DNA from: Proteiniphilum propionicum
GTDB lineage: Bacteria > Bacteroidota > Bacteroidia > Bacteroidales > Dysgonomonadaceae
NCBI RefSeq assembly: GCF_022267555.1
Contig: NZ_CP073586.1
Span: 2,533,501-2,597,500 of the forward strand
Reading direction: 5' to 3'
DNA length: 64,000 nt
The notes under the pieces: generated by a model
Database searches by the model: none
What the model was told of the DNA's origin: nothing
The model's input: the letters and a program-made list of their open reading frames with translations, nothing else
Position numbers and translations under genes: made by a program
Shown: in pieces, positions 26,644 through 57,118 of the stretch
Layout of the letters: every line of letters begins with the position of its first letter
How positions within the stretch are numbered: position 1 is the stretch's first letter

Positions 26644-26662
26644 AGTGTAGTTGCTTTTAAAT

Positions 26663-26732
26663 ATTAGTCAACGTGTTTTTCACCCAATCAATATCCTTCT
26701 CCCCTAAATGCTAAATTTATAACATTCGTATA
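26663..26732 (-). other. attI-like site 1, before the DUF262 cassette
   Basis: Read on the minus strand, TATACGAATGTTATAAAT is followed by exactly 42 nt and then GTTGACTAAT, where the cassette opens. The attI-like copy at 56 kb has the same 18-mer, the same 42-nt spacing and the same AACAC before GTT. The 42 nt themselves have diverged. The matching cassette end (TTAGTCAAC) was not found; the IS1182 relic lies where it should be. Confidence 0.6.
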
Positions 26733-26734
26733 TC

Positions 26735-26890
26735 TTCATGCGCAATTGGGATTATTTACGAAGGTTTGTAGAATCTGGATAAATAATGGTGAAAAAAAGT
26801 GTGTTGCATAGGTATGCAGTATTTTAATTGCAAATATAACAATTATTTGGATAAAACAACGGTATTGTTTAAAAGTTATGAGTTTTCTTC
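26735..26890. repeat. diverged direct repeat, copy 1 (copy 2 at 33775-33915)
   Basis: About 140 bp matching 33775-33915 by eye, for example GTGTGTTGCATA and AAATATAACAATTATTTGGA in both. Each copy lies just outside an attI-like site and contains the candidate cassette promoter. Confidence 0.75.
26831..26859 (-). promoter_or_regulatory. candidate cassette promoter 1
   Basis: On the minus strand, TTG (26859-26857) and TATATTTG (26838-26831), 18 nt apart, fit the Bacteroidetes -33/-7 promoter. It points into attI-like site 1 and the DUF262 gene. The same box recurs in the homologous segment at 33858-33865. Confidence 0.5.
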
Positions 26891-26898
26891 CATGAGTA

Positions 26899-27239
26899 TA
26901 TTTTATTGATGTGTTTGTTGATGACAGTTCTTTCATGCTGAAAAAGCTCACCCATTTGTGCCCGCGTAAGCTAAACCGTCTCATCTTCCAGGCGTACTTC
27001 AAGTTTTGCCGTTTCATCCGGTTGATAAAGTATTATTTCTCCGTGTTGTTCCATATTCTGGATAAAGTATTCGTCGATTCTCACAACTTTGGTGTATACT
27101 CCTATTGTTGTCTCTTCATCAAGTTCTCGATGTTTTCCAATTGGGATACAGCTTGTTGGGTAATATTCAATTCAATGTCAATTACTTCTTGTTTAATGCC
27201 CTTGATTTCCCTGAATAGCTTTGCATTTTTACCTTGATG
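26899..27239 (-). pseudogene. XRE regulator fused to RhuM-like fragment, decayed
   Basis: Minus-strand translation gives 'GKNAKLFREIKGIKQEVIDI', then 'ELNITQQAVSQLENIENL', a helix-turn-helix of the XRE type. A frameshift follows, then 'NMEQHGEIILYQPDETAKLE', 'VRLEDETV', a stop (TAG in place of the expected Trp codon) and 'LTRAQMGELFQHERTVINKH', the N-terminus of RhuM-family proteins. The frameshift, the stop and the missing C-terminal part make it a pseudogene. Confidence 0.7.
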
Positions 27240-27251
27240 GACACTCTTTTT

Positions 27252-27726
27252 GTAAGTACCCCAGCAAGTACCTCTTGATTATTCCGGAGTATATGCACTC
27301 ACAGATTTGATCTGATTATTCATGTCTACAACTGCGGGAGCTCCAGTAAATTGTTAGAGTATTATTAGAGTGCCAATAGGTATTATTAGAGCATTATTAG
27401 ATTTTCACTGGAGATTCGCCAGTTTCCTCCTTTTCCCAGTAATTAAGCAAGAGCTTCTTCTGGTTTTTATCATTCCCCGGCTTCTGGTAATAAGGCATCT
27501 TGCCTACAACATCGATGAGCCACTTCCCCGGGTTCACCCTCTGCGCCTTGTATGAGGTCAACAAGGAGCTGTAAACAGGAGCAGATTATGGCCGTGTTCC
27601 CGGCTATCTCGTGGTTTTCACAGAACATGAGTTCTTTCGAGACAGGGCAATGGGTCGGATGGCATTTTCAGCCAGGTTGTTGTCGAGTTTCAGTCTTCCA
27701 TCCAGCAGGTAATTTTTCATGCCGCA
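27252..27726 (-). mobile_element. IS66 left-end remnant with tnpC fragments
   Basis: Starts with GTAAGTACCCCAGCA, the counterpart of the IS66 end at 16837, and matches 16837-17165 over more than 300 bp by eye (same region encoding the TnpC C-terminus: 'PREWLIDVI'-type sequence, 'YYQKPGND'). It continues with TnpC core fragments that the 17-kb copy has lost, and is then cut by the IS91-type element. No intact frame remains. Confidence 0.75.
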
Positions 27727-27820
27727 TGTTGAACTAAACCCGTATTCACGGGTATCTTTTAACAAAAGTACCTGATTCTTTATATATTCGATGATTTTTC
27801 ACCACAAAAAATGTCCGATT

Positions 27821-28720
27821 ATGAGAAAGAAATCAGGTTTTACTTTTGTCGAGCAGGCCATTGTGCTTGTTCCCGAGTTTAAGATGGTTGTCCACAAACT
27901 GGAACAACAGGTCACGTTACGGGGGCAGAGTCGGAGTACCTTACAAAACTACATCCGCCGGATTGCCCTTTTTGTCATTCATTTTGGCAAGCTTCCCGAG
28001 AAGATTGATCCCGAAGAGATCAATGAATACCTGGCTGCGTTGGCGCGTGATCCCCGATCGCCCTTGCGAAGCAGTTTTAAGCATATGGTGTACGGGCTGC
28101 GCTATTACTATTGCTTGTCGGGTATGAACCGTGAAGCCATCGCTCTGCCATCACTTAAAAAAGATTCGAAGCTGCCGGTGATACTGAACCGGCGAGAGCT
28201 GAAAGAGTTGTTTGCGGCACCCACGCTGCTCAAACAACGGATAGTGCTCACATTGATTTATTCTGCCGGATTGAGAGGCCAGGAGGTGATTAACCTGAAG
28301 ATCTCCGATATCGACTTTGAGCGCAAAACCATCCACATCCGCCAGAGCAAGTACAAGAAAGATCGTGTTGTTCCATTGGCTGACAGCATGGCTATTGGTC
28401 TAAAAAAGTACCTCAAAGCCGAAAACCCGCATGTCTAGTTGTTCAACGGAAAAGAACCTGACGGTCGATACAGCGTGCGCGGGCTCTCCCGGGTGATGCG
28501 TGAGAACCTCAAAAAGACATCCCATCACAAAAGAGGCAAACCTTCATTCACTGCGGCACTCGTATGCCACTCACCTGCTTGAACAGGGACTGAACATCGT
28601 AACCCTGAAAGAGCTGCTCGGCCATGCCGATATCACCACCACCATGATTTACCTTCACGTAGCTCAATGTCCACTCATTAAAACACACAGTCCACTCGAT
28701 TCCCTGTACAACTTCACCAC
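27821..28720 (+). pseudogene. tyrosine recombinase of the IS91-type element, broken
   Basis: A phage-integrase-type recombinase: SAM-like core-binding domain ('LRGQSRSTLQNYIRRIALFV'), then the catalytic domain with Arg in 'YSAGLRGQEVINL', 'HSLRHSYATHLLEQG', 'LLGHADITTTMIYLHV' (final Tyr nucleophile). An in-frame TAG at 28436 sits where 'HVWLFNG' would need Trp, and a frameshift near 28525 separates the R-H-R-H/Y part. All catalytic residues are encoded, but not in one frame. In intact relatives it accompanies the IS91 transposase. Confidence 0.8.
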
Positions 28721-28723
28721 AAA

Positions 28724-29813
28724 ATGAGAACAAGGTTTGAACTGCCCGATGTGGTTCGTCGGTTTGCTCCTTCGCTGCAGGACCGTGGAACGCTTACTCC
28801 GCTTCAAGAAAAGGTGTTTGCTAAAATTGCACTCTGTAGAACCGCCGCTCTTGGCGGACATGAGGAGGCGTGTGACAACTGCGGCACGATTCGTTATAGC
28901 TATAACAGTTGTGGCGACAGGGGCGACAGGCATTGTCCAAAATGCCAGGCAGCCAGACAAGCCTTCCGGATTGACGGGCTGGTGCAAGGCACTCTGCCCG
29001 TGAGGCATTATCATGTCGTTTTCACTGTGCCCGACCATTTAAATGTCCTTTGCCTGCATAATGGAAGGATGTTCTACAACCTGCTATTTTCGGCCGTATG
29101 GCACACCCTGAACAGTTTTGGATACTCGCACCATGGTGTCGGGACCGGAGCTATAGCCGTGCTCCATACTTGGGGACAGAACCTCTCACTACATCCGCAT
29201 ATCCATTGTCTCGTTCCGGCTGTCGGCTACTCCCTGGATGGCCGATGGAAAAACATCGGTCATGGGAGGAAGTTCTTTTATCCTGTTAATCAGATGAGCA
29301 GTGCGTTTAAATCTAAGTTCCTGGACAGCCTCAAAAGAGCTTTGCGCGAACAAAACCAGTTGATGCTCTTCAATGACCGGATTCAGCGTGCATATAGCAC
29401 TCCCTGGGTGGTCCATTATCACTGATGAAAAAGTAACCTTTATTGCCAGGGATTACCGACAAGGAGCGGCTAAAAAGTACATCACTTTCGGTGGTGTGGA
29501 GTTCCTGCGCAGATTTGCCCAGCACATCCTCCCACGCAGATTTGTAAAAATCCGACGTTACGGTATCTACAACCACACGGCAAAACGGAATTTGGGAATC
29601 AAGTTTAGGGTAGAAGATGAATCCGAAAGCGACAACAAGTCAAGATCCCGGAAAACGATTGAATCGAATATTGAACGTTTCGAAAGACTTACCGGCATCA
29701 ATCCCTGTCATTGTCCGGTGTGTAAAACGGGTCAGATGATTAGAATCAGAAGACTGCCTCCCATACGTTCTCCTCCAGGAACCACTTTCATACAGACTCA
29801 TCCCCAACTTTAA
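28724..29813 (+). pseudogene. IS91-type transposase lacking the catalytic Tyr region
   Basis: The first part (28724-29425) has the zinc-binding N-terminus ('ACDNCG', 'HCPKCQ'), 'RHYHVVFTVPDHLN' and the HUH motif in 'SLHPHIHCLVP'. After 'PWVVHYH' the frame stops. The second part (29420-29813, other frame) continues with 'TFIARDYRQG', 'FLRRFAQHILPRRFVKIRRY' and 'CPVCKTG'. Compared with intact IS91 proteins, the stretch expected to read like 'YLGQYTHR', with the catalytic tyrosine, is missing between the parts. It is therefore a deletion plus frameshift, not a simple one-base error. Confidence 0.8.
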
Positions 29814-30009
29814 CTATCAAAACCAAATGCGCCTAAAGGTGCACAGGGTAGGATGTGTCATTTAGTTAAGAATAAGCGATCACAGAACCTTTTCTTAATC
29901 CTGATTGATCCATAAAAACTGATTCCGGAAAGCACAAAAACCTGCAAAATATCAAAGATCGCTTGTCTATTTTTCCTTCAGAAAAACAAAAATATTCATT
30001 AAGTACATA

Positions 30010-30092
30010 GCACTAAAATAACGGTGGGTGTAGTTCAACACCGACTCCTCGCTGGGTCGTGCCGACCGCTCAGAGTCCTATTTATTATGTGC
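30010..30092 (-). other. attC-like site closing the ubiquitin-like operon cassette
   Basis: Minus strand: GCACATAAT at its start pairs with ATTTTAGTGC at its end. The cassette opens with GTTATGTG (32680-32673) and closes with CACATAAT, a complement with one mismatch. Inner hairpins GGTCG/CGACC and GGTGT/ACACC are visible. The next cassette would open with GTTATTTTAG but is replaced by the IS91-type element. It starts 8 bp after the DUF6527 stop. Confidence 0.6.
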
Positions 30093-30100
30093 TGACTTTT

Positions 30101-30526
30101 TTATCTTTTTGGTTTTTCATAATAATTTGGTTCTGCTATCCATGGTTCAATCCCGGTATTTCCGCACCATTCAATTACCCCATTTGCGACCCAGAAGTGA
30201 CTCAAACAACCTTTATTTTGCCATACTGAAGGATACAGAGTTGGTTTCCCTTCAATCGAATGTTCAAGTCGCCAATAAGGATTGTGATTTTTTTGTAAAG
30301 GCAATGAAATGACATTTTTGCATCCACATGGACAAATAAAAATTGCCCAATATGATTGATTACGGTAAACAACTTCAACAAAGTCTTTTTCTTTTAAAGA
30401 ATCTTCATTAGGAGTTTTGTCCATAATAATAATAGAATTAAAATATGACTCATCTTTTTTACTCGTTAAGAATTCATACTCAAGATGAAAAAGCTTTTTT
30501 ATAAACCTCTTAAACCATTTAATCAT
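30101..30526 (-). CDS. DUF6527-family protein of a ubiquitin-like pathway
   Basis: A 141-residue protein, last gene of the four-gene operon, overlapping the E1 gene by 8 bp. A basic, hydrophobic N-terminus is followed by 'AIFICPCGCKNVISLPL' (cysteine cluster that could bind metal), 'YWRLEHSIEGKPTLYPSVW' and 'GVIEWCGNTG'. This fits DUF6527 proteins, found repeatedly with bacterial E1/E2 genes. Its biochemical role is unknown; a metal-binding target-recognition or ligase-like part has been suggested for such components, but nothing here proves it. Confidence 0.7.
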   Translation of the reverse strand: MIKWFKRFIKKLFHLEYEFLTSKKDESYFNSIIIMDKTPNEDSLKEKDFVEVVYRNQSYWAIFICPCGCKNVISLPLQKNHNPYWRLEHSIEGKPTLYPSVWQNKGCLSHFWVANGVIEWCGNTGIEPWIAEPNYYEKPKR

Positions 30527-31979
30527 CTATTGGTTTTTTGCCATATTGAGGAGTGCCTAAACGATATTTCCCTTCTCCCTGTTTCAGAAGAAGGTGTTCT
30601 TTACAATAAATACATTCAGGAATATCTCTTGGAGTATTACTATGGATATTAAGGTGGATAAAATCAATCCAAATATTATCTTGTCTTAAATCCGAGGGTA
30701 AATCCCTGTAATTAGAAATCAGATTCATAAAAGTTGCAACAGCATTATTAGCCGTACCCCTTGTAAAAGCTCCAATTCCAGGAGATTGTACATTCGCACC
30801 AAAAATATAATAATGCTTTTTTAAGATTTCAGGGTCTAAATCCGCTAACTCTGGATTATCTTTTAATTTTTGTTCATCTGACAACATTTGGTCATTAATT
30901 ACATTTTGGCAACGTAAACATGAACCATATTCTGGAAGAATACAACTAACGCGACCTTTTTGAGTTCTTAAATAAGGATTACCGTCTTGGTCTTTATCAA
31001 CATTTCCAGAGAGCCCAACATCAATGTATACTTGGGAATAATAATATAATGCTTGGTTTAATAAATCTCTTCCGGCAACATCATCTGTACATCCAAAAAT
31101 AATATCTGCAGTTGATAATGCATCTAATGCTTCTGCTGATTCGTTAATATAATTTGGAATTGCAACTACTTTATTTTTTAGTCCTAAACATTTTATATAT
31201 CTCATAACGATATTTGCCTTGTTTAGCCCAATGTCACATTTGGAAAAACCACTTACTCGATTCAAGTTACTTTCAACTAATAAATCTCCATCAATTAATA
31301 TAAGTTCCCCAACTCCAGTTCTAGCTAATAAATTCGCAATTGGAGAACCTGTTCCGCCTAGTCCAATAATTGCAACTCTTAGAGATTGAAGTTTTGTATT
31401 AAATGGTTTTCCAAAAGCTTTTTCCTGTCTTTTCAGGCTTATCGGTAGTTCATCTGGCATTTTTATACCATAAAGGTCAAGACTTTCATTTAGGACTGAA
31501 ATATGTCTAATTCCTAGTATTATTTCTGGATTTATTCCTTGTCTTATCCTTCCAATCCAAATATTATTACATAGGATTAGTGAAATTAAATATGAACCCG
31601 GGGAATTGCATCCTGATAATCCATGGAGAATATTTTTCTCATTTATATCATCCTTTTCTGAAAAATAAAAATTACCATCAGGATGGTTATGAACAAATCC
31701 TAACTCTAAATTTTCATTTTCACAACGAAAATATAAATCAGGGAATTTTTTCATATTGATAGTAAATTGATTTAAAGTACTATCTATAATCCAATCTCCT
31801 TCCATTCTAATAATTTCCACGGATAAGAATCTGTCGGATTTTGGAAGTCCATCAACTTTGCGAGATATTCTTCTAAATAAAACGATTGCACCACGCTCAT
31901 GTCCATCTGGGTGTGTAGTCAACCATTCTTTTAGAATCTTATCATGACTACCAAGTAACGTTATCCTATGTTCATTCAT
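30519..31979 (-). CDS. JAB peptidase - E1 (ThiF) fusion
   Basis: A 486-residue protein joining two ubiquitin-pathway activities. Residues about 1-150 are a JAB/JAMM metallopeptidase: Glu28, 'FVHNHPDG' with His97 and His99, and Asp110 in 'SEKDD' are the expected zinc ligands. Residues about 195-480 are an E1-like ThiF/UBA adenylation domain with 'RVAIIGLGGTGSPIANLLAR' (201-220), 'LILIDGDLLVESNLNR' and two CxxC pairs ('CLRC', 'CIYC') for zinc. The JAB part would process or remove the modifier, the E1 part activate it. It overlaps the E2 gene by 4 bp. Confidence 0.9.
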   Translation of the reverse strand: MNEHRITLLGSHDKILKEWLTTHPDGHERGAIVLFRRISRKVDGLPKSDRFLSVEIIRMEGDWIIDSTLNQFTINMKKFPDLYFRCENENLELGFVHNHPDGNFYFSEKDDINEKNILHGLSGCNSPGSYLISLILCNNIWIGRIRQGINPEIILGIRHISVLNESLDLYGIKMPDELPISLKRQEKAFGKPFNTKLQSLRVAIIGLGGTGSPIANLLARTGVGELILIDGDLLVESNLNRVSGFSKCDIGLNKANIVMRYIKCLGLKNKVVAIPNYINESAEALDALSTADIIFGCTDDVAGRDLLNQALYYYSQVYIDVGLSGNVDKDQDGNPYLRTQKGRVSCILPEYGSCLRCQNVINDQMLSDEQKLKDNPELADLDPEILKKHYYIFGANVQSPGIGAFTRGTANNAVATFMNLISNYRDLPSDLRQDNIWIDFIHLNIHSNTPRDIPECIYCKEHLLLKQGEGKYRLGTPQYGKKPIDD

Positions 31980-32392
31980 CTTTGTGCATCAGGTTTTTTC
32001 AAAGCCCACTCAATCCGGCTTAATATTTTTTGAATATTATCAATTTTGGGTTTCCAAGTATCTGCTGTAAAATGCCTCGACCATCGACAAAATTCCTTCC
32101 CTTTATGTATCCGAGAATCTCCTTGTCCAAAAATAAATGCAGCTGGAATTTGTTTCTTATCTGCTCTTGTCAAAGGAGGATAAAACCAAAACATGTCATT
32201 TCCACTTGTGTTATAATTTGGAGGAATGACGACTAACACATCAACTTTTTCGATAGGTTGGTTGGCGTATTCGTATAGTCCGGGTTTTAACGGAAAATCC
32301 TTAATTACTAAAAATCTCGTTGCTTCATCCTCCTCAAATTCGAGTCCAGAGCTTGCAAGAATTTCGTAATCTTCATCAAATAACAAAGCCAT
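31976..32392 (-). CDS. E2-like conjugating enzyme (prokaryotic E2 family E)
   Basis: A 138-residue protein matching the pattern of bacterial E2 family E: 'EILASSGLEFEEDEATRFLV', 'FPLKPGLY', 'VDVLVVIPPNY', 'DMFWFYPPLTRAD' and 'FCRWSRHF'. Cys102 in the last motif is the only cysteine, hence the sole candidate for a thioester-forming residue. It sits between the ubiquitin-like gene (1-bp overlap) and the JAB-E1 gene (4-bp overlap), so translation is coupled. Conjugation activity is inferred from the family and operon. Confidence 0.8.
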   Translation of the reverse strand: MALLFDEDYEILASSGLEFEEDEATRFLVIKDFPLKPGLYEYANQPIEKVDVLVVIPPNYNTSGNDMFWFYPPLTRADKKQIPAAFIFGQGDSRIHKGKEFCRWSRHFTADTWKPKIDNIQKILSRIEWALKKPDAQR

Positions 32393-32628
32393 TAAATGCC
32401 GGGCGTTGAATTAGCAACTTGCGAGTAAAATTTTTCAATTCCCGGTTCATCTAAATCTATCTTCTGGTCATTTTCAACAAGCTCTCCGGGTTTGCCTTGC
32501 CTTTTTACAAATAAATCCATACTTGCCGGAATTCCTGGCGGAATTGCTCTAACTTCTGCACCTGTAATGAATTGATTTTCCCAATCATGCATTTCATTCT
32601 CGATTTTAAATTTAAATTTTTTGCTCAT
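32392..32628 (-). CDS. ubiquitin-like modifier (multiubiquitin-type domain)
   Basis: A 78-residue protein, first of the operon. 'FKFKIENEMHDWENQFITGA', 'EVRAIPPGIPASMDLFVKRQ' and 'DEPGIEKFYSQV' follow the beta-grasp pattern of bacterial multiubiquitin-type domains, here as a single domain. The C-terminus is 'NSTPGI', with no terminal Gly-Gly. The JAB domain encoded downstream could trim it, or a different C-terminal chemistry applies. No lysine target is suggested by the sequence. Confidence 0.75.
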   Translation of the reverse strand: MSKKFKFKIENEMHDWENQFITGAEVRAIPPGIPASMDLFVKRQGKPGELVENDQKIDLDEPGIEKFYSQVANSTPGI

Positions 32629-32672
32629 GATTTTTGTTTTTTAATTGTTAATACTTTTGTTTTTTAAGTTTA

Positions 32673-32806
32673 CACATAACGTGTTGCCGCTTGCCGTAGT
32701 GGGGGATTTCGGAGCCTAAACTATCAACAAGCACAAATGTTGATAGAAGTACTGCACTTGATTGAACTACGTCAGCCCCCATTGCGGTGAACGGCTGTTA
32801 TGGCAC
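32673..32806 (-). other. attC-like site closing the DUF3800 cassette
   Basis: Minus strand: GTGCCATAAC, A, then stem GCCG and GGGGG; on the far side CCCCC, CGGC, AACAC, then GTTATGTG. Outer arms pair imperfectly over about 30 bp. An inner 9-bp perfect hairpin CTATCAACA/TGTTGATAG has an 8-nt loop. GTGCCATAAC is the exact 10-bp complement of the cassette opening GTTATGGCAC at 33717-33708. The site begins 8 bp after the DUF3800 stop. Confidence 0.8.
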
Positions 32807-32813
32807 GTTTTTC

Positions 32814-33671
32814 TCATCCTGTCTTTGGTTTAAAATTATTCATTTGTCCAACCAACCAATTTCTCGTAGGGACACTTCTTGGAACTTCTCTAATTCCGTA
32901 ACCTTGAATTTCACCATTCCGTCCACGTCTTAAATTTGGATATACAGATTCATAGAACATTTTTACACCCCGAGAATAGTCATTGTCTATTGAAGCTTTT
33001 AGTATAGAACTGAATGCTCCTGAAATATAGTCTGCTAGTTGAATACCAACGGAATGATGAGAATTTTCAATGTTCAAACTGTCCTTTATGAATTTATAAC
33101 TTTCAATATAATCTCCATTTTCAAAAAGTTCATAGTAAAACTGTCGGAACATTTCGTTTTTTTCATTCCCAATTGGGTCAAAAAATAGAACGCCTAAATT
33201 CCCTTCGTCAACCTGTAATTCCATTTCTAGTCTTTGCATATGTTCTTGCAAATGAAAGGAAATCATTGATTTTTCATTGGTTGGGTATCGGTTTGAGTTC
33301 TTAGTGTAAGTCGCAATAATTTTTTTCTCATTTAATAAATTAATCAAAGCAAGTGACTCTTCAACAAAATCTATTAATACGTGATAGTCTATTTGTTCAA
33401 TGTGTTGCAGTCTAAAACGTTCAGGGATTTTTTTCTTGTTTTTCTGAAAACTTCTTAGGGTCCAAAGATTAGCCCACTTTATTTCTTTCGAAATAGAAAG
33501 TCCGTATTTCTTTTTTAATTCTCTAAAATTAAGGTTTAGCGTTTTCCATTCATTAGAGTTCATCAGTAAAGTTGTTCTGATATAGAATGGATGATTCCTT
33601 AACTGTATGTCAGTCAAATTGGGTTTGTAATCCCCGCATTCATCACTAAAACAGAAATAGGTGTCAGCCAT
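32814..33671 (-). CDS. DUF3800 family protein
   Basis: A 285-residue protein with 'FCFSDECGDYKP' (Asp10, Glu11) at the N-terminus, 'GVLFFDPIGNEKNEMFRQFY' in the middle and 'HSVGIQLADYISGAFSSIL' near the end. This acidic pattern is the RNase H-like fold of DUF3800 proteins, which recur in mobile elements and defence islands. It is the only gene of its cassette, lies 33 bp from the cassette opening and is preceded by attI-like site 2. Nuclease activity is plausible but unproven. Confidence 0.75.
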   Translation of the reverse strand: MADTYFCFSDECGDYKPNLTDIQLRNHPFYIRTTLLMNSNEWKTLNLNFRELKKKYGLSISKEIKWANLWTLRSFQKNKKKIPERFRLQHIEQIDYHVLIDFVEESLALINLLNEKKIIATYTKNSNRYPTNEKSMISFHLQEHMQRLEMELQVDEGNLGVLFFDPIGNEKNEMFRQFYYELFENGDYIESYKFIKDSLNIENSHHSVGIQLADYISGAFSSILKASIDNDYSRGVKMFYESVYPNLRRGRNGEIQGYGIREVPRSVPTRNWLVGQMNNFKPKTG

Positions 33672-33703
33672 GTAGTTAAATTTTATTGATTGTTGTCGTC
33701 TTT

Positions 33704-33765
33704 AAATGTGCCATAACATGTTGTTTACGCAATAAATACACAACTTTCGTAAATGCCTGATTTTC
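33704..33765 (-). other. attI-like site 2, before the DUF3800 cassette
   Basis: Plus strand GTGCCATAACATGTTGTTTA, then CGCAATAAATACACAACTTT and CGTAAA, matches the attI-like copies at 48.66 and 56.02 kb over about 50 bp, then diverges. The cassette opening GTTATGGCAC on the minus strand begins inside it. No recombinase relic is seen on its other side. Confidence 0.7.
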
Positions 33766-33774
33766 TATACAATC

Positions 33775-33915
33775 GGGGGTGTCTACGAAGGTTCTTTGAA
33801 TCGGGATAAATAATAGTGGAAACTTGTGTGTTGCATAAGTATCAGTATTTTAAATTACAAATATAACAATTATTTGGATAAAAAAACGGTATTGTTAAAA
33901 AGTTATTAGTTTTAT
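33775..33915. repeat. diverged direct repeat, copy 2, with cassette promoter box
   Basis: Counterpart of 26735-26890. On the minus strand TATATTTG (33865-33858) forms the same -7 box, pointing into the DUF3800 cassette. Confidence 0.65.
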
Positions 33916-34016
33916 TCGGCAAAGGCATTGGTGAGAGGGAGCTCTGCCACTAAAGCATACTCTTTTCTCTTTCGTAAAATAAGCCACCGGCCTATCTTAA
34001 AGAGGAGTCAGGAATT

Positions 34017-44004: not shown

Positions 44005-44029
44005 TTCGTGCTTCTGTTTCAATCCCATG

Positions 44030-46711: not shown

Positions 46712-46786
46712 TGGATGAGGCCTCCCGAAGTCAGAGTGCGACAGGACGTCGCACCCTTATACATTACTATCTACATAGGTTTTACA

Positions 46787-48538: not shown

Positions 48539-48655
48539 ACCATAAACCTCCCTTTTCTAATGTATTTCTTTTCATTATCATCATACTTATATAATTGGAC
48601 ATTCCTTAAACGTCCTTTTTGTCCGCCGCAGGACGCGGCGACCCCGCCTCATCTT

Positions 48656-48957
48656 TCCGATAACGTGTTGTTTACGCAATAAATATACAACTTTCGTAAA
48701 TACCAGATTTAAAACATTCGTATACAAAGATTGGTATGAAATATTTTGCATTTATATTGTAATGATTGTTAGGTTGTTATGTTTTGTATGATTATTTTAT
48801 ATTTTTGCATATACGAATGTTCCATAAAATAGAAAGCGATGAAAATAATCTATTTGTTGAATGAATTTGAGCGGAAAATGATCGTGTAACGATACAGTTA
48901 CAACTCCTTTCAGAACTATAATTAACAAGCAATCAGTAAATTTGCTAATTAGGGTCT
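48656..48957 (+). repeat. attI-like site 3 with recombinase promoter and relic
   Basis: About 300 bp, closely matching 56019-56320. In order on +: cassette core TCCGATAAC, GTGTTGTTTACGCAATAAAT, AACATTCGTATA (48713-48724), an AT-rich stretch with a TATTTTTGC-like -7 box, TATACGAATGTT (48810-48821, exact complement of the first 12-mer), then the relic gene at 48839. Cassettes lie to its left on the minus strand; the recombinase reads to the right, as intI does relative to attI in integrons. Confidence 0.75.
48839..48955 (+). pseudogene. tyrosine-recombinase N-terminus, relic A
   Basis: Reads 'MKIIYLLNEFERKMIV', stop, 'RYSYNSFQNYN', stop, 'QAISKFAN', stop. Ignoring stops, this resembles the SAM-like core-binding start of tyrosine recombinases ('RYS..(S/T)I.NY...I..F'). 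Only about 38 codons remain before unrelated transposase debris. The first two stops sit at the same codons as in relic B at 56203. Confidence 0.55.
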
Positions 48958-49293: not shown

Positions 49294-49791
49294 TTAAAAC
49301 GTTTCTCCCAACTCTCTAAACATTTGTATAGTTGAAATATACTGGATTTTAAAATGAATGCATGGTTCAGGTATCTTGATTTTATTTTTTCTGTTTGGCT
49401 GACTAACCTCATGTGTTACCATAACACAATTATGTTTCATGGCATATGCTATTAACCAAGGATCTGCTAAATCTGTCGCCAAGAATTCATCTTTGGCATT
49501 TTGTTTAAAATGTTGATTGGATTGTACCCACAACGCTATCTCTGCATACTTGTCAACACATGATGAAGTGTTCACGAAAAAATCAGACTTTATATCGTTA
49601 ACACACCATAAAGCCAATTTATCAGGTGTTGAAGTATTACAAATTTCTTTTTTTACTTTATCTATACTACAAATCAACTCCCTATCAGACAAGTCAATTA
49701 ATTTATTCCAAAAACCTGGAACCACATCAAAAGGATAATACATTCGATGAGCTTGAATTAAAACGTTACTATCTAACAGGTATTTTTTCAC
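49294..49791 (-). CDS. DUF4411 PIN-like protein, putative toxin
   Basis: A 165-residue PIN-fold protein: 'YLLDSNVLIQAHRMYYPFDV' (Asp7), 'IDKVKKEI' (Glu) and 'ATDLADPWLIAYAMKHNCVM' (Asp) give the acidic nuclease site, and the pattern is that of DUF4411. It begins at the last base of the upstream ImmA/IrrE gene, a tight pair. DUF4411 with a COG2856 metallopeptidase is a recurrent toxin-antitoxin-like arrangement, so an RNase toxin is the likely role. Confidence 0.82.
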   Translation of the reverse strand: MKKYLLDSNVLIQAHRMYYPFDVVPGFWNKLIDLSDRELICSIDKVKKEICNTSTPDKLALWCVNDIKSDFFVNTSSCVDKYAEIALWVQSNQHFKQNAKDEFLATDLADPWLIAYAMKHNCVMVTHEVSQPNRKNKIKIPEPCIHFKIQYISTIQMFRELGETF

Positions 49792-50951
49792 TAATACAGA
49801 TGTTCTGTGATAAATTTGTTATACGTGTCGCCTTTCATGTTTGTCAATTTATAAGCATCGCGATACAAGAGTTTATTTTCTTTTACGGCGTTATCTACAA
49901 AAACAGCAAACCTTACACTTACTCGTTTTCTTGCAGTTGCATAGAAATCACCTCCGGAACCCTGCTTCTCCTTTCTTTGCTTAAAATCGCTCATATAATT
50001 ATTGTAAAACCTAAGAAAATCGCTCAAGTTGATCAATTTTAAATCCAACGCCCTTCTATATATTACAATAGGACTTACTTTAAACATCTTACTCAGAGAC
50101 TTGAAATCTTGAGTTAATTCCCATTTTTGCAAAAAACATTCCTTTGGAACTAAGAATTCGGCAGCTACTTTATCACACAAAATCTCCATAGGATTATTTG
50201 CAGGCAACAATTGCTGGTTATCGAACCCGGCACTTTCTCCTATCCATACATGTGCTAATTCGTGTATTAATGTAAACATCTGTGCAGCCTTAGCATCCGC
50301 AGCATTGATAAATAGAAAAGGAGCCTTCTTATTTACTAAAACAAAGCCACGGCATTCGTTAACATCAATTACTCTATGGGTATTGGCTCCAACAATTCCG
50401 TTAAACGTAACAATAATACCAGCCTCTTCAATCTTACTTGTCAAATGGTTTAAAGCTTGCTCCCAGTTTTCGTATAGCTCGGCCCAATCCTCTTCAAGTT
50501 GAAGAACCTCTCTTATGTCGCTAACTATGCTACTTGCATTATCCTTAACACTAAACTTCCCCACAAAATTCAAATCAGAAAAATCCAGTTCTTCCAGGTA
50601 TTCAGTTAACCAATCTTGCCTATCCTTTATAAGTTGTATGGCATGAAATACGTTTAAACTCACTTTTTCTGTTTGCGCTTTCTGACCGGTTCTGAAGAAT
50701 GGTAAAGGAATGGTTTCTACAGGAGGGTTATCAAGAAACATATACCCAAAAGGCACATGCACTTTGTGAGTAAAATTTTCAAGTTGTTTTAGCGTGGGAT
50801 ATTTTTCTCCTTTTGTCCAACTTTCTACGTCAGGATTATGAGCATAGAATTCTTCCAGACTATTACCATTTCTAATAATTGCCCACTCAATAACATCTCT
50901 GTTAATATTTTTAATTCTTTTACTCACTGCACAAATATATTCAATTAACAA
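49791..50951 (-). CDS. ImmA/IrrE-family metallopeptidase with N-terminal HTH-like region
   Basis: A 386-residue protein. The N-terminal about 70 residues ('VIEWAIIRNGNSLEEFYA', 'WTKGEKYPTLKQLENFTHKV', 'FGYMFLDNPP') resemble an XRE-like helix-turn-helix. The COG2856 metallopeptidase domain has 'FTLIHELAHVWIGES' with the HExxH zinc motif at His230-Glu231 and His234. 'CDKVAAEFLVPKE' is the usual following helix. It overlaps the DUF4411 gene by 1 bp and probably acts as its antitoxin or regulator. Confidence 0.85.
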   Translation of the reverse strand: MLIEYICAVSKRIKNINRDVIEWAIIRNGNSLEEFYAHNPDVESWTKGEKYPTLKQLENFTHKVHVPFGYMFLDNPPVETIPLPFFRTGQKAQTEKVSLNVFHAIQLIKDRQDWLTEYLEELDFSDLNFVGKFSVKDNASSIVSDIREVLQLEEDWAELYENWEQALNHLTSKIEEAGIIVTFNGIVGANTHRVIDVNECRGFVLVNKKAPFLFINAADAKAAQMFTLIHELAHVWIGESAGFDNQQLLPANNPMEILCDKVAAEFLVPKECFLQKWELTQDFKSLSKMFKVSPIVIYRRALDLKLINLSDFLRFYNNYMSDFKQRKEKQGSGGDFYATARKRVSVRFAVFVDNAVKENKLLYRDAYKLTNMKGDTYNKFITEHLY

Positions 50952-51974: not shown

Positions 51975-52934
51975 ATGTTGCTTATGAAAAAATACAAACA
52001 GTTAACTTCAGAACAAAGATATGCTATTTATTTAGGCTTACAAAACGGAACAAGCAAGTCTGAAATAGCCAAGCAGATAAAGGTAAATATTTCTACGGTT
52101 TATAGGGAATTAAGCCGTAACAAAAACAAAACTGGAGGCTACTCATGGCGTTTGGCACAAGAGATGGCCCAAGAGCGCAAAGAACGTTTACCGGGCAATA
52201 GATCGACATCGGAGTGGATTAAACAGAAAATAATCCGTCTCATTCGCAAAGATTGGTCGCCCAAACAAATCAGCGGATATCTCGCAAAATATGATCAAAT
52301 ATCTATCTCTCACGAGACTATTTATCAATGGATCAGGCAAGATAAGAAATCGGGAGGAAACCTTTACAAGCACTGCCGCCACAAGCTCAAATACAGAAAA
52401 AGACCCGTAGGTTCTGCCACTAACATACCCAACAGAAAAAGTATTCGCCAAAGGCCAAAAGAGGCCGACGGAAGCCGGTTTGGAGATTTTGAAATGGACA
52501 CCATAATAGGAAACGGACAAAAGGAAATAATACTGACAATGACAGAAAGAAATACAAACTTTATAATGATGAGAAAACTGCCTATGGGCAAAGACTCTAA
52601 GCAGGTTTGCAAGGAAGTCATTGCTATGTTGCTGCCTTATAAGGACAAACTGAAAACCATTACAACAGATAACGGATCCGAGTTTGCAGCACACGAACTG
52701 ATAACAAAAAAGTTGAAAGTACCGGTATATTTCACTGATCCTTATTCATCGTGGCAAAAAGGAGCTGTTGAAAATGCCAATAAATTAATCCGGCAATACA
52801 TCCCAAAAGGAGCAACATTTAAAGATTATTCCGATGAGAAAGTAAAAGAAATACAGCATAAACTAAACAGAAGACCAAGAGAAAAATTAGACTTTAGCAA
52901 TCCTAAAATAGAGTTTTACAAAAATTATTACTAA
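51975..52934 (+). CDS. IS30-family transposase
   Basis: A 319-residue intact transposase. N-terminal HTH_38 'QLTSEQRYAIYLGLQNGTSK' and 'IKVNISTVYRELSRNK', then the rve core with Asp in 'FEMDTIIGNG', Asp in 'TTDNGSEFA' and Glu in 'GAVENANKLIRQYIPKG'. The end 'LNRRPREKLDFSNPKIEFY' is standard. A second ATG three codons downstream (51984) is equally possible. AAGTGCAA at about 51816 and TTGCACTT at about 52936 may belong to its inverted repeats, but the ends are not secure. Confidence 0.93.
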   Translation: MLLMKKYKQLTSEQRYAIYLGLQNGTSKSEIAKQIKVNISTVYRELSRNKNKTGGYSWRLAQEMAQERKERLPGNRSTSEWIKQKIIRLIRKDWSPKQISGYLAKYDQISISHETIYQWIRQDKKSGGNLYKHCRHKLKYRKRPVGSATNIPNRKSIRQRPKEADGSRFGDFEMDTIIGNGQKEIILTMTERNTNFIMMRKLPMGKDSKQVCKEVIAMLLPYKDKLKTITTDNGSEFAAHELITKKLKVPVYFTDPYSSWQKGAVENANKLIRQYIPKGATFKDYSDEKVKEIQHKLNRRPREKLDFSNPKIEFYKNYY

Positions 52935-53169: not shown

Positions 53170-53230
53170 AACGGATGGATGAAATCCTCCATCCGTTCTC
53201 CCGACGAGCCGAAGGCGATGTCGGGAGAAC
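53170..53230 (-). other. mini-cassette 2 with shortened attC-like hairpin
   Basis: The same 36-bp unit as mini-cassette 1 (GTTCTCCCGAC, 14 nt, GTCGGGAGAAC), followed by a short hairpin AACGGATGGA/TCCATCCGTT instead of the 127-bp version at 43.7 kb. The difference fits a deletion between GGATGGA and GGATGAAA. The next cassette would open with GTTAGC. Confidence 0.7.
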
Positions 53231-53356
53231 GTACTGCAATATGAAACGATGGGGAGTGCGAGCTCCGTCACTGTCAGCCGACACGAAAACTCTATGCGGC
53301 GCTTTATGTTTATATAACCTGTTAAACCCCATTGTTTTATATTGCTTGTTGGCGGT
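53220..53356 (-). other. attC-like site closing the small lipoprotein cassette
   Basis: Minus strand ACCGCCAAC (53356-53348) is the exact 9-bp complement of the cassette opening GTTGGCGGT at 54019. Arms GCAATATAAAACAATGGGG and CCCCATCGTTTCATATTGC match at 17 of 19. Spacer AGTAC precedes GTTCTCCC. Confidence 0.85.
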
Positions 53357-53368
53357 TCGTTGTTTTTT

Positions 53369-53962
53369 TTATCTTGTCATTGTATTATAATCAAATCCTT
53401 GTAAATAGGATATTTTCCAAGTCCCATCAGTCTTTTTTGCTTTTACTTTATAATCAAAGTCTTTACTCCAATCAGAATCTCCCCAAGTCCAGGTTAATAC
53501 TGCATTGTCATTGTCTATGCTTATGAATTTAACTACAATCTTATCCCAAGGATTGTCATAAGGTATATCCTGACAGTTACACCAAGGGTCTGCTCCTGCA
53601 TAGGGAGGCATATCCCCGTCCATAAAAGAGATTTCCTTGTTTTTAATCTTTTTATCAATTGCCTTTACAATCTTGCCGTAATTTTCAACAAATTCTTTAT
53701 CAAACAATTTAGTCTTGGTGAATTTATCTAATTCCGTTTGCAGTACTTTTAAATCCATACCTATCGCTAGACTATCATTTGGATTAAATATCGGTTCAAA
53801 TCCATTTAATACGCCATTTTTATCATGCCATTTTAATACCTTAATCACTAAATTTTTAATTTGTGTTTTATCTTCTGTTACTGAGTCAGCCTTTGTTCCA
53901 GTCTGTCCACAAGAATAACAAATCAATCCGATAAGTAAAATTGTCAAATTAATATATCTCAT
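53369..53962 (-). CDS. small lipoprotein, DUF3828-like
   Basis: A 197-residue predicted lipoprotein: signal 'INLTILLIGLICYSC' with the lipobox Cys. 'VIKVLKWHDKNG' near the start and 'YDNPWDKIVVKFISIDNDNA', 'YKVKAKKTDGTWKISYLQGF' near the end follow the pattern of DUF3828 proteins. Its function is unknown. It is the only gene of a cassette with 9-bp matched ends. Confidence 0.75.
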   Translation of the reverse strand: MRYINLTILLIGLICYSCGQTGTKADSVTEDKTQIKNLVIKVLKWHDKNGVLNGFEPIFNPNDSLAIGMDLKVLQTELDKFTKTKLFDKEFVENYGKIVKAIDKKIKNKEISFMDGDMPPYAGADPWCNCQDIPYDNPWDKIVVKFISIDNDNAVLTWTWGDSDWSKDFDYKVKAKKTDGTWKISYLQGFDYNTMTR

Positions 53963-54010
53963 AATCCTATTTTTTAATCACTTTAAGGTGTCAAGTGTCT
54001 TTTTACAATG

Positions 54011-54146
54011 ACCGCCAACGGTTTATGGTATGGTGTCGTGCGGGAGTACGAGGCGATTTCCTATCAGTTTACACCGACCTTTTTTACGAGCTGCAAACGC
54101 TCGCAAACCTTTGAAACCCGCATGCACTATACCATGTGTTATGGGC
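54011..54146 (-). other. attC-like site closing the reverse-transcriptase cassette
   Basis: Minus strand GCCCATAAC (54146-54138) is the exact 9-bp complement of the cassette opening GTTATGGGC at 56027. Arms CATGGTATAGTGCATGCGGG and CCCGCACGACACCATACCAT pair well; spacer AAACC precedes GTTGGCGGT. An inner GAGCGTTTGCAGCTC hairpin is present. The site starts 8 bp after the stop codon. Confidence 0.85.
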
Positions 54147-54153
54147 TGGCTTT

Positions 54154-55989
54154 TCATAGTTCAAATCCTGATATAAATATGTCAAATGGTTCGCCTGTCT
54201 GATTGTTATCAGTTTTTTCTACTTGTTCATTTTCTTTTGATTGTTGGTCTTCCTGTTGAACTGCTTGTCCGCCTGAGTATGTCTCAATTGGTTTTTCCTC
54301 CTTAGGTTTATATGTTTTAAGCTGTTTTGTTTGTTTGTAGAATTCTACATTTTTGTCCTTTAAGATTTTGAAGAATAAGTTCTTGTCAAGCAGATTTGCT
54401 TCTGCCGGAGTTAGCCAACCTTTTTTTACTCCTTCGTAAGCTAACAGCCAATTTTCAGTCATTAAGATGTCGTCTTTTAATTCTGCTTCAATATCACTTA
54501 CTCTTGGATGTCCATTTACTAAAGTCGTGTTTTTGATTAAGTCCAACAGAATTAAGTTTGAAATGCTGTCTCTTGTATCAATAATATTATTTGCAGATTG
54601 CTCTTCTATTTCTATCTCAAATGTTTTTGCAATCCATAATGCCCAAGCCATTTCAAAGTTATGTCTAACAGGACAATGCTCTTTAATAGTAACATTTATA
54701 AGTCTTTTTAATTTTTTTTTGGAGTCTGCATCAAGGTATGATTTGTAAGTGATGAATATTCTTGTGAGAATATCAAGAATGGCAGGTTCTATAAGAGCAG
54801 TTTTCACCAACAGGTCTTCAAATACTTTCCAACTTTTTTTCTGAATGACAATAGTTGAGAACTCGAAAATTCTTAGAGAGTATTTAAAAATCCAATCAGT
54901 CTTCTTCGGATTACGTTCTGCAAATGCCCAAATTAAACTGAAGTAATGTTTAATACTATTTGTCTGATTTGTTTTTTTGAAGTCAAAGGTGTGAAGAGTT
55001 GTGGTAAATTCATCTTCAAATGCAAATGGGAACTCACGTATTTTTACTTTTGCTTCATTAATTTCTAATTGAAATTCAGATAATATTAATTGCAAACCTT
55101 TTAAAACTTTGTCAGCTTCGTCCTTAGATGAAACATACAAATAAAAATCATCATAATATCTGCAAGCCTTTAGGTCTAATGAACTTAAACGAGTTTTTAA
55201 AATATTGTCAATGCGACAAGCAACTACTTCAGCAATAATATGAGATGTGTCTGGTCCAATTGGAATTCCTATTGATTGTCTTTCTTGACAAGCTCTTAAT
55301 GCTATATCAACACTTTCAGCATATTTGTAAAGTTGAGCATCTGTGTCTCCGCTTGCAATTAATGCATCAAGATTATCTTTTTCTTTAAAATAGTGTTTTG
55401 CCTTGTCCTTACCTAATAATGCCCAAGCGATAGAATGAGTATAAATTGTTGGATAGAATTTAGAAATATCAACTCTAACTTCAATTAATTTATCAATTGA
55501 TGTTTTAAGCAGGGAATTTCTGAATTCAGCAACACTTTTGCTAAATGTTGAAACAGACCTTTTGTCTATTGCTGATTCAGGTATTGGATAACTTTGAGAA
55601 TACTCAGAAAGTCTAAATACTGCTTCGTAATCTGTCCAACGAGAAACTATCTTTTCTGATAATATTGAAAAGTGTTTCGGATTTGGTATCTGTAAAAAGC
55701 GTCTAGATAATTTACCTTTTGAAATCGAGTAAACAGTTGCTTTTGAAGCATTGTATTTTGAAACAAAGTCTGCTCTGTGTGCTTTTTTTCTATCTTTAAA
55801 TTGTTGGGGTGTTTCGCCTGGGGTTTGAGTTAATACAAAAGTCCCAGAATTTATTTGAGTGTTGTTTTCAAAAACAGTTGTCCAACTTGCAAGTGTCGCT
55901 GCAATGTCTGCCGATAAATCAGACGTGTCAAAAGGTGGCGGTAATTCCTTTGGAAAATATCCTCTTTCTATTAAGTCTTTTAATGTCAT
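54154..55989 (-). CDS. defence-type reverse transcriptase (UG/Abi class)
   Basis: A 611-residue protein. The RT palm shows 'VRVDISKFYPTIYTHSI' (Asp174), 'QSIGIPIGPDTSHIIAE' and 'CRYYDDFYLYV' with the YxDD-type site at 278-281. 'GIPIGPDTS' is typical of Abi-like and unknown-group RTs and not of group II introns or retrons; no maturase domain or msr/msd RNA is seen. The C-terminal half (about 330-560) is helical, as in these RTs, and ends in a low-complexity Gln/Glu tail. The exact DRT class could not be assigned. Sole gene of a cassette, 33 bp from its opening and next to attI-like site 4. Confidence 0.85.
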   Translation of the reverse strand: MTLKDLIERGYFPKELPPPFDTSDLSADIAATLASWTTVFENNTQINSGTFVLTQTPGETPQQFKDRKKAHRADFVSKYNASKATVYSISKGKLSRRFLQIPNPKHFSILSEKIVSRWTDYEAVFRLSEYSQSYPIPESAIDKRSVSTFSKSVAEFRNSLLKTSIDKLIEVRVDISKFYPTIYTHSIAWALLGKDKAKHYFKEKDNLDALIASGDTDAQLYKYAESVDIALRACQERQSIGIPIGPDTSHIIAEVVACRIDNILKTRLSSLDLKACRYYDDFYLYVSSKDEADKVLKGLQLILSEFQLEINEAKVKIREFPFAFEDEFTTTLHTFDFKKTNQTNSIKHYFSLIWAFAERNPKKTDWIFKYSLRIFEFSTIVIQKKSWKVFEDLLVKTALIEPAILDILTRIFITYKSYLDADSKKKLKRLINVTIKEHCPVRHNFEMAWALWIAKTFEIEIEEQSANNIIDTRDSISNLILLDLIKNTTLVNGHPRVSDIEAELKDDILMTENWLLAYEGVKKGWLTPAEANLLDKNLFFKILKDKNVEFYKQTKQLKTYKPKEEKPIETYSGGQAVQQEDQQSKENEQVEKTDNNQTGEPFDIFISGFEL

Positions 55990-56018
55990 TTCGTTTCTTG
56001 ATTGTCGTTTTTAAGCTT

Positions 56019-56320
56019 GCCCATAACGTGTTGTTTACGCAATAAATATACAACTTTCGTAAACACCCGATTTATAACATTCGTATACAAAGACCGGTAT
56101 GAAATATTTTGCATTTATATTGTATTGTTTGTTAGGTTGTTATGTTTTATTATGATTATTTTGTATTTTTGCATATACGAATGTTTTACAAAATCGAAAG
56201 CGATGAAAATAACCTATTTGCTGAATGAATTTGAGCGGAAAATGATCGTGTAACGATACAGTTCCAGCTCCATTCAGAACTACAATTAACAAGCAATCAG
56301 TAAATTTGCAAATTACAACG
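56019..56320 (+). repeat. attI-like site 4 with recombinase promoter and relic
   Basis: Counterpart of 48656-48957. On +: GCCCATAAC, GTGTTGTTTACGCAATAAAT, AACATTCGTATA (56076-56087), a TATTTTTGC-like -7 box, TATACGAATGTT (56174-56185), then the relic gene at 56203. The reverse-transcriptase cassette opens on the minus strand at 56027. The layout attI between a divergent recombinase gene and the first cassette matches integrons. Confidence 0.75.
56203..56319 (+). pseudogene. tyrosine-recombinase N-terminus, relic B
   Basis: Reads 'MKITYLLNEFERKMIV', stop, 'RYSSSSIQNYN', stop, 'QAISKFANY'. Read through the stops, 'RYSSSSIQNYNxQAISKFANY' is a good match to the core-binding domain start of tyrosine recombinases. 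It is cut after 39 codons by an IS3 transposase fragment. Both stops are shared with relic A. Confidence 0.6.
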
Positions 56321-56480
56321 ATTCAAGATAGATCTTCTCATATTTGATGTTCTTCCGGAATCTCTCGATGAAGATATTATCAATTGCACATCCCTTATCG
56401 TCCATGTTGAACTTTAAATCCGGGTACGATGCAAGTAAGGATAAATGGGCGGTCTCTTTTTGTTTTTCGTGTCTTGCATA
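56321..56480 (-). pseudogene. IS3-type transposase C-terminal fragment
   Basis: Minus-strand translation 'MDDKGCAIDNIFIERFRKNI' followed by 'KYEKIYLESL' is the segment with the catalytic Glu of IS3-group transposases. No other part of the element remains. It has replaced the 3' part of both the recombinase relic and the neighbouring cassette. Confidence 0.75.
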
Positions 56481-56930
56481 TTATTGTTTCATAAATGAGG
56501 ACCAATGTGTGTGAACAATCTTCCATTGTCCATTTGGCTCAAGTCTATACACTTCGGTACAGCTCCATTTGGAAATGTTGTAAGCTTTGTAAGAATGTAG
56601 GGTAAAAGTCAAAACGGCCATATTATTAACGGCAGTGACTTTCGGATTAAGCATTTCGTATTTCGATACATTTATTTGCCCTTTTATTGGCTCGTAATAT
56701 TTTTTAAGGCTATCGAGTCCGTTTAGCCGCCGTTCTAAAGAAGGGTCAAAATAAGTTGCGTCTTCAGCTGAAAGGTCAAGATATCCGCTTGGGTCACCCT
56801 GATTCCACTTTTCTAGCGCTCTTTTCTCCAAAGCAATAATTGTCTCGGAAATGTCTGTGTTCACTGTTTGCGAAAAACTCATATTTGCAAGAATTAATAA
56901 TGTTAGTAAAATAATTTGTCTCATCTTCAT
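56481..56930 (-). CDS. secreted SnoaL/DUF4440-like protein
   Basis: About 149 residues from the chosen start (MKMRQIIL); a longer frame to 56972 lacks a sensible N-terminus. A signal peptide ('IILLTLLILANMSFSQ') precedes a nuclear-transport-factor-2 fold: 'ALEKRALEKWNQGDPSGYLD' , 'DATYFDP' and 'WSCTEVYRLEPNGQWKIVHT' are the usual strands and helices. Substrate and reaction are unknown. It probably was a cassette gene: an attC-like site lies upstream (57045-57104), opening GTTTAACGG, but its matching end has been lost to the IS3 fragment. Confidence 0.75.
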   Translation of the reverse strand: MKMRQIILLTLLILANMSFSQTVNTDISETIIALEKRALEKWNQGDPSGYLDLSAEDATYFDPSLERRLNGLDSLKKYYEPIKGQINVSKYEMLNPKVTAVNNMAVLTFTLHSYKAYNISKWSCTEVYRLEPNGQWKIVHTHWSSFMKQ

Positions 56931-57044
56931 AAGGTTATGTTTATAAATTGCAAATCTGTAAGTAAAAATCAAGGAATAAATGACGTTTTTTTAAAGTTTG
57001 ACTGCTTGAAAAACCTGACTGTTTGCGGTGTTCTTATTAATGTT

Positions 57045-57104
57045 GCCGTTAAACGGTCTCGTGTATGATACGTAACGAATATATTACACTTTATAGTTGC
57101 TTTC
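57045..57104 (-). other. short attC-like site before the SnoaL-like gene
   Basis: Minus strand GAAAGCAAC, TATAAA, stem GTGTAATATA, loop, TATCATACAC, spacer GAGACC, then GTTTAACGG. About 60 bp. It would close a cassette holding the Fic fragment; that cassette's opening is cut away by the IS91-type end, so the match cannot be tested. Confidence 0.55.
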
Positions 57105-57118
57105 GATAACTGCCGGCA

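Follow-up and report, generated by a model that had tools for sequence, protein, structure and literature searches.

Canonical integrons place an integrase gene by an attI junction and carry cassettes that open with GTT and close with AAC, whose two ends are complementary, whose attC sites form imperfect hairpins and whose genes mostly share one orientation; integrase-less arrays occur alongside. In passages of PMC9668308 and PMC7790495 the additional domain of the integrase IntI (I2, the patch III region) is called defining or necessary, being required for cassette capture and conferring single-strand recombination, and a part of PMC7790495 (eLife 2020) proposes that acquisition of I2 opened single-strand recombination, with intermediates lacking. 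Integron surveys, as described in passages of PMC2426708 (an early survey) and PMC9668308, used the IntI-specific domain as their criterion for integrases, and a family without it would escape them. Integrons have been reported before in Bacteroidota (PMC8618304), and text of the IntegronFinder 2.0 paper (PMC9024848) names one complete Bacteroidetes integron, in Salinibacter; judging by these passages, such reports are rare. We analysed a 64,000-nt stretch of Proteiniphilum propionicum (contig NZ_CP073586.1, positions 2,533,501 to 2,597,500), called the window below, which holds three arrays on its minus strand, each a leader followed by cassettes. An earlier note on this DNA had proposed a divergent integron class in a Bacteroidales genome, and the tests, mostly favourable, support it as essentially right. 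The arrays are very probably cassette arrays of the chromosomal integron type, whose integrase, an Xer-like tyrosine recombinase, lacks the insertion specific to IntI (I2, the additional domain).

Several kinds of sequence evidence carry this reading: an integrase gene lies beside a conserved leader that ends in GTT; the cassettes start with GTT, end with an imperfect hairpin and have ends complementary to each other; the hairpins covary strongly; integrase and hairpins co-occur and adjoin across Bacteroidota; and the same cassette start junction is found behind a different neighbour.

In the window the order is gene, AAC, imperfect hairpin, next GTT, with genes starting shortly after GTT and ending shortly before AAC, and with 63–118 bp between the cores in five delimited sites. 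The seven pairs of reverse-complementary opening and closing cores that had been listed are all present verbatim. With the first G of the opening core and the lower end of the closing core as coordinates, they bound the cassettes for DUF3800 (GTTATGGCAC/GTGCCATAAC, 33717/32797), an ICMT-like methyltransferase (GTTATAGGGC/GCCCTATAAC, 43718/43167), an OLD-like nuclease (GTTATCGGA/TCCGATAAC, 48664/46703), a reverse transcriptase (RT; GTTATGGGC/GCCCATAAC, 56027/54138), a lipoprotein-like protein (GTTGGCGGT/ACCGCCAAC, 54019/53348) and an AAA ATPase (GTTGTGCG/CGCACAAC, 46639/43997), and two gene-less mini-cassettes (53230/53195 and 43880/43845). One more pair, weaker than these seven, encloses E2/E1-like genes (GTTATGTG/CACATAA, 32680/30085); the last base of its closing core is T, not C.

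The hairpins were modelled twice. R1 is a covariance model from ten hand-picked sites, namely six from elsewhere and four window hairpins out of five that the earlier note had named for such a model. For a MAFFT alignment of the ten, the RNAalifold consensus consists of 16 pairs; double changes that compensate each other occur in 12. At E 1, R1 gave 40 matches from 27 sources in one search and 102 from 72 in another, including arrays beside integrases just 42–50% identical, in Winogradskyella, Flavobacterium, Aquimarina, Cecembia, Runella and others; these distant loci had been picked by integrase alone, as the best 80 of at least 571. The same hairpin type thus recurs, as predicted, with different genes between its copies in many Bacteroidota genomes. 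R2, a second model from 110 sites, has a covariation score of 0.746 vs 0.180 when shuffled and 0.06–0.10 for slid structures (maximum 0.097), on an alignment that was fitted to the model and so is biased toward it. Both-side changes occur in 16 of 16 pairs of this alignment, but shuffles average 14.8 on that count. Alignment position 30 is A in 110/110 sites and the opposite base is C in 107/110, a mismatch on the top strand that could be a G-T pair on the bottom strand. Folding favours the bottom strand in 96 of 132 sites and the top strand in 32; in 4 the two are equal. The sites have the build of attC arrays, with AAC, hairpin and GTT in order, paired stems and an unpaired spacer. Rfam gave no match at gathering thresholds.

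The set of 132 sites comprises 38 of the 40 and 93 of the 102 R1 matches, the 11 weakest having been dropped, and the OLD site, added by hand. It yields 79 consecutive pairs, taken as cassettes, of which 76 have GTT and AAC at the expected places; an automatic cassette walk was excluded from the counts for its false closings where insertion elements break arrays (e.g. L015, L048). The opening and closing cores of the same cassette are complementary over at least 7 bp in 54 of the 76, as cassette circularisation predicts. This was found for 4.5% of 5,548 cross-locus pairs, for 9 of 152 pairings between different cassettes at one locus, and for 9 of 126 pairings of the two cores of one integrated site. 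On this point the earlier note was right: what determines a core is the opposite end of its own cassette, not one repeat family, and the pairing is that expected of a circular cassette, as in integrons. The longest frame in the 54 complementary cassettes lies on the site's strand in 44, on the opposite strand in six (five of which have no frame above 250 nt), and is shorter than 150 nt in four; the median cassette is 853 bp (56 cassettes). GTT is kept in 107–108 of 108 cores and the fourth base is a purine in 103/108, but the fifth is a purine in only 52/109, so that the core reads GTTR and departs from the consensus GTTRRRY/RYYYAAC, as had been noted. Among the first 25 families per table, the cargo of 44 scanned cassettes includes superoxide dismutase, short-chain dehydrogenase, NADAR, a member of the rifampin ADP-ribosyltransferase family and several defence-candidate families.

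What precedes the arrays was absent from the earlier list, which had the cassette pairs right and missed the attI-like leaders, the integrase outside the window, its want of the IntI insertion, and the breadth of the system. Three leader copies end at 56028, 48665 and 33718. Copy 1 (56028–56320) contains a remnant of an integrase 5′ end (by eye), an inverted repeat ACATTCGTATA..TATACGAATGT and a putative attI ending in ..TTGCGTAAACAACAC^GTT. Copy 2 (48665–48950) is 92% identical to it over 275–300 bp and should hold the promoter region, with a putative cassette promoter Pc; copy 3 (33718–33920) has diverged, only its last ~53 bp matching copy 1 (91%). A degenerate fourth stretch (26670–26890, ending AAAAACAC^GTT) is 85% identical to copy 3 over 149 bp and 76% to copy 1 over 63 bp; no closing partner was found for it, TTAGTCAAC being absent from the minus strand of the window. 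An inverted repeat TATAACATTCGTATA/TATACGAATGTTTTA lies in the leader at 56073–56188, and further ACGAAWGTT repeats are seen by eye in orthologue leaders; these repeats are possible integrase arm sites or an operator.

A search of the organism's own genome (one contig, 3,906,720 bases) with the leader of the RT gene found it in the window and at C1:2467399-2467644 (93% over 246 bp to copy 1), ~65 kb left of the window, where it overlaps the 5′ end of a divergent gene for a 280-amino-acid tyrosine recombinase. This divergent layout is that of classical integrons. A leader motif ending in GTT and divergent from the integrase occurs in 11 of the 13 upstream regions read, our own included; three motif variants (L048, L057, L058) were written by eye. 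Across 16 motif-bearing leaders the mean majority fraction is 0.89 in the 36 bases before GTT and 0.50 in bases 4–30 counted from the start of GTT; five of the 16 come from the own genome (the integrase locus, three in the window, L017), the motif itself includes GTT, and L064 and L065 went unmatched. Sequence after GTT mostly differs between loci, with L050 and L053 sharing an insertion-element end there. AttI-like matches were made in 14 of 101 genomes (five sites in the own genome, four in the complete genome G059), and the reversed pattern matched nothing. One of the own sites belongs to a further array, L017 (G000 C1:1397957-1403103), with a leader-like start and hairpin sites.

The distant clade has a different layout. 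Where a first site lies downstream, 32 of 33 loci have, between the integrase stop and that site, a GTT word with 9–10 bp of complementarity to the site's closing core; it stands 39–124 bp after the stop in 27 of the 32, often behind a dif-like imperfect palindrome (by eye). Most of this clade would accordingly have its attI 3′ of the integrase and the Bacteroidales clade 5′. In having the array downstream on the integrase strand, most distant-clade loci resemble the reverse-oriented integrons of Treponema and others, as part of PMC9668308 presents them; the integrase family differs from theirs, and the Bacteroidales clade is divergent in the classical way.

The 280-residue recombinase passes the XerA-type model NF040815 (232.5 bits, cut-off 220) and fails the IntI model TIGR02249 (227.9 bits, cut-off 265), model positions 179–237 being unmatched; no own-genome protein scores above the curated TIGR02249 cut-off. 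The nearest solved relatives by sequence are XerA 5hxy (E 1.3e-42) and IntI4 2a3v (E 5.3e-41). The NCBI product name of NF040815 is 'site-specific tyrosine recombinase/integron integrase', so its curators may have had a hint. A search of 101 genomes (our own and 100 relatives) matched the integrase in 37 at E 1e-45, with more than 50% identity confined to the family of the window's organism; eleven orthologues aligned to our integrase are 61–89% identical. In the insertion columns 94 of 94 family proteins have 0–1 residues, 20 of 20 IntI have 42, and five other recombinases of the own genome have 0–7. This alignment took 16 close and 78 distant family members, L053 and L070 having been omitted beforehand, and the 94 include the same contigs twice (L058/L066, L062/L071); the 42 columns are wider than the published ~20-residue domain and should contain it. 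Across 25 aligned proteins R138, K163, R230, H253 and Y262 are invariant and H227 is nearly so, residues which we take to be the active site. In a quick tree of 75 rows IntI is a single clade (100% SH-aLRT) whose long branch falls, with weak support (81–88%), among insertion-less family members, a position that long branches render unsure; four other tyrosine recombinases of the own genome fall outside the family. Family integrases are also found in contigs titled Neomarinimicrobiota and one titled Saccharospirillaceae (L099, L103, L108), where contamination is possible.

Integrase and hairpins go together both locally and genome by genome. R2 makes 137 matches around 80 integrases: 120 lie downstream and share the integrase strand, 11 are upstream on the other strand, and six fit neither pattern. 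Of the 80 loci, 42 have a match; where the downstream sequence reaches 1.5 kb or more, one of the two expected positions holds sites in 37 of 49. Among 295 genomes of the window's class, presumably Bacteroidia, R2 sites occur in 216 (E 0.001) and the integrase profile in 168 at E 1e-55. With the integrase threshold at 1e-78, chosen after the E-values were seen to be bimodal, sites are present in 138 of 146 genomes with the integrase vs 78 of 149 without (odds ratio 15.7); the figures are 151/168 vs 65/127 at 1e-55 and 129/134 vs 87/161 at 1e-90. In a small control, 100 kb of E. coli K-12, R2 matched nothing at E 1, no wide survey beyond Bacteroidota having been made.

The insertion-less integrase system thus appears widespread in Bacteroidota. 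As far as sequence can tell, it would be an integron in every anatomical respect tested but the strict core consensus, while lying outside the standard definition of the integrase. It shares with canonical integrons the anatomical features listed in our opening sentence, and differs in that its integrase is without the insertion filling 42 IntI columns and scores below the IntI cut-off, that its core is GTTR and not GTTRRRY, and that R2 finds nothing in 9 of 13 IntI genomes without the family integrase.

Several points weigh against the integron reading. No hairpin site is at an expected place in 12 of the 49 integrase loci with enough downstream sequence, and 8 of the 146 integrase genomes have no site matches, in surveys (R2 and integrase profile alike) that scored a limited number of candidates per genome. 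The 7-bp complementarity is missing from 22 of the 76 cassettes, probably in some of them by way of a missed intervening site. Two of the 13 upstream regions are without the motif, L054 having a recognisable leader with GAT for GTT and L059 none. The first cassette beside our own integrase has at best GTTGC/GCAAC, by eye, followed by insertion elements, and R2 sites come only ~8 kb further on. Excision, insertion, strand choice and resolution are modelled on canonical integrons; the reaction could be a different one, given that the IntI domain described in print as necessary is missing, and another tyrosine recombinase of the own genome could be the true enzyme. Finally, sites occur in 78 of the 149 class genomes with no recognised integrase; of 13 IntI genomes lacking the family integrase, 4 have them too, and in G105 a cluster of four site matches (1203834-1206509) ends 3.8 kb from a canonical IntI.

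These last observations also favour an alternative in which the cassettes are ordinary ones captured earlier by a canonical IntI, forming a cluster of attC sites lacking integron-integrases (CALIN), with the Xer-like recombinase by the leader unrelated to them. The hairpins do follow the canonical attC plan, and canonical IntI is common elsewhere in the phylum, above cut-off in 105 of 395 genomes. Only one of the 105, however, is labelled as the window's class, and the own genome has no IntI above the curated cut-off. The sites follow the insertion-less integrase instead: among 19 IntI genomes R2 matches in 10, six of which have the family integrase (E 1e-60), in four of them at most 5 kb from R2 sites, whereas none of the nine without matches has it. 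Within 12–15 kb around the IntI of G137 and G143 R2 finds nothing significant (best E 0.06). An attI-like junction lies beside the insertion-less integrase in 32 of 33 loci. We consider this explanation unlikely.

A second explanation, that the host XerC and XerD recombine dif-like repeats in pdif-like or IMEX-like modules and that the 280-residue protein is a mere relative, seems to us still less likely. It can point to the score of that protein above the NF040815 cut-off and to the many clade-B junctions that lie, by eye, in dif-like imperfect palindromes. The family resembles XerA-type and XerC/D recombinases in size (mostly 270–282 amino acids), in having no insertion and in its best solved relative. 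It is nevertheless separate from them and stands beside hairpin-site arrays, and in each of the 11 upstream regions where the motif occurs a gene of this family abuts the leader. Sites of the pdif type are near-identical short repeats, whereas the sites here vary in sequence, keep their pairing and have cassette-specific cores.

Traces of movement bear on a last explanation. The window's AAA cassette recurs in part, at 86% over its first 1,925 bp (46640-44716), in L220, from genome G753 of the same family. The homology starts at 46640, one base before GTT, and the site preceding it there is that of the mini-cassette, not of the OLD cassette; the end of the cassette has no counterpart in L220, where a transposase-like frame comes next. 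The expected junction at GTT was thus found for the start of a cassette, behind another neighbour in another genome, but the match covers only its first 1.9 kb. At 89–91% identity over 123–128 bp, the RT hairpin is found again in three genomes from other families (L221, L222 and L223), where its flanks and cores differ (the genes beside it were read in L221 only). Gene and palindrome therefore do not travel as one fixed unit, and it was such a unit that the earlier note had named as counting against its proposal. That the units are small transposon-like elements or terminators spread by an insertion sequence is hardly credible: the region does hold insertion-sequence remnants (IS30-, IS66-, IS91- and IS3-like by eye) and the mini-cassette is a strong hairpin, but the same hairpin has different flanks, a cassette stands behind a different neighbour, and each core depends on the other end of its own cassette and not on a family consensus.

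On the integron reading, the integrase would excise circular cassettes between two hairpin sites and insert them at the attI of the leader, the crossover falling within or next to G^TT. Such a crossover would set the two ends of each cassette back to back and so make them complementary. The integrase probably recognises the folded bottom strand, since the sites vary in sequence but stay paired, most of them fold better as the bottom strand, and the almost invariant A/C mismatch becomes T/G there. In the own genome the single full family integrase found would serve five attI-like sites in trans.

The three arrays of the window, all on the minus strand, are composed as follows. Array 1, from 56027, starts with the RT cassette (54138–56027; gene 54154-55989), whose product matches a defence model as a Drt6/Drt4-like reverse transcriptase and whose attC-like hairpin (54011–54146) scores 108.9 bits with R1 (E 1.7e-23), being in the training set. 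The lipoprotein-like cassette follows (53348–54019; gene 53369-53962), so labelled by eye; its protein has no Pfam match, and its hairpin (53222–53356) is in the training set of the model. Next come mini-cassette copy 1 (53195–53230), with a shortened hairpin up to the GTT at 53172, and an epimerase-like fragment cut by an IS30-like transposase (both labels by eye). That transposase (51975-52934) interrupts an epimerase-like cassette beginning at 53172.

A two-gene module that separates arrays 1 and 2 (49294-50951; peptidase-like and PIN-like by eye) has the look of a toxin-antitoxin pair and not of a cassette, and some relatives carry similar DNA.

Array 2, from 48664, begins with the OLD-like nuclease cassette (46703–48664; gene 46787-48538, named by protein family scan). 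Its short attC-like hairpin (46631–46711) has a fold z of -2.83 and, lying outside the training set, scores 33.5 bits with R2 (E 4.7e-5). The AAA ATPase cassette (43997–46639; gene 44030-46585) matches the PADLOC candidate PDC-S06 with 1289.9 bits; its hairpin (43872–44005; R1 115.8 bits, training set) is 84% identical over 122 bp to the hairpin L052:2348-2481, which has other sequence beside it. Mini-cassette copy 2 (43845–43880) has a long attC-like hairpin (43710–43853) with a fold z of -8.25, 0 of 200 shuffles being equally stable, and a partial R2 match at 43710-43796. This gene-less 36-bp mini-cassette with a hairpin of its own is found twice in the window and twice in L220, perhaps as a terminator or spacer cassette. 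The array ends with the ICMT/PEMT methyltransferase cassette (43167–43718; gene 43227-43688), where no hairpin was recognisable and the following stretch folds no better than shuffles (z 0.37).

Array 3, from 33717, carries the DUF3800 cassette (32797–33717; gene 32814-33671, named by family scan), with a hairpin at 32672–32805 that is in the training set, and then the cassette of Prok-E2 and ThiF E1-like genes (30085–32680; genes 31976-32392, 30519-31979 and 30101-30526, from family and defence scans), which closes with CACATAAt. An IS91-like element with a broken tyrosine recombinase (27740-30080; element type by eye) occupies the place expected for its hairpin. The end of this element, GTTGAACTAAACC, sits exactly at the attI GTT in L050 and L053, so that the IS91-like element may target integron sites.

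Strong defence-model matches were made by four of the nine window proteins scanned, and the likely use of the system is then the capture, storage and turnover of accessory genes. In the open-licence PMC literature searched, with preprints outside its scope, we recognised no description of an integron system with an insertion-less integrase; one may exist elsewhere.

A bolder proposal, which we put forward tentatively and nearly as apt to hold as to fail, is that a large branch of Bacteroidota integrons has been overlooked, in which insertion-less integrases recombine folded single-stranded attC hairpins, an almost invariant G/T mispair of the bottom strand replacing the extrahelical bases read by I2. 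In that case I2 would have arisen later, as a specialisation, instead of being the innovation from which integrons began, in line with the weak placement of IntI in the quick tree. The insertion-less enzymes may be intermediates on the way to I2 or an independent solution, and they make the question posed in that part of PMC7790495 directly testable. If the integron reading is true, an accessory-gene reservoir, several of its members defence-like, would become readable with a simple model, and cassette exchange would be common in one of the main bacterial phyla, where an important channel for sharing genes seems to have escaped notice.

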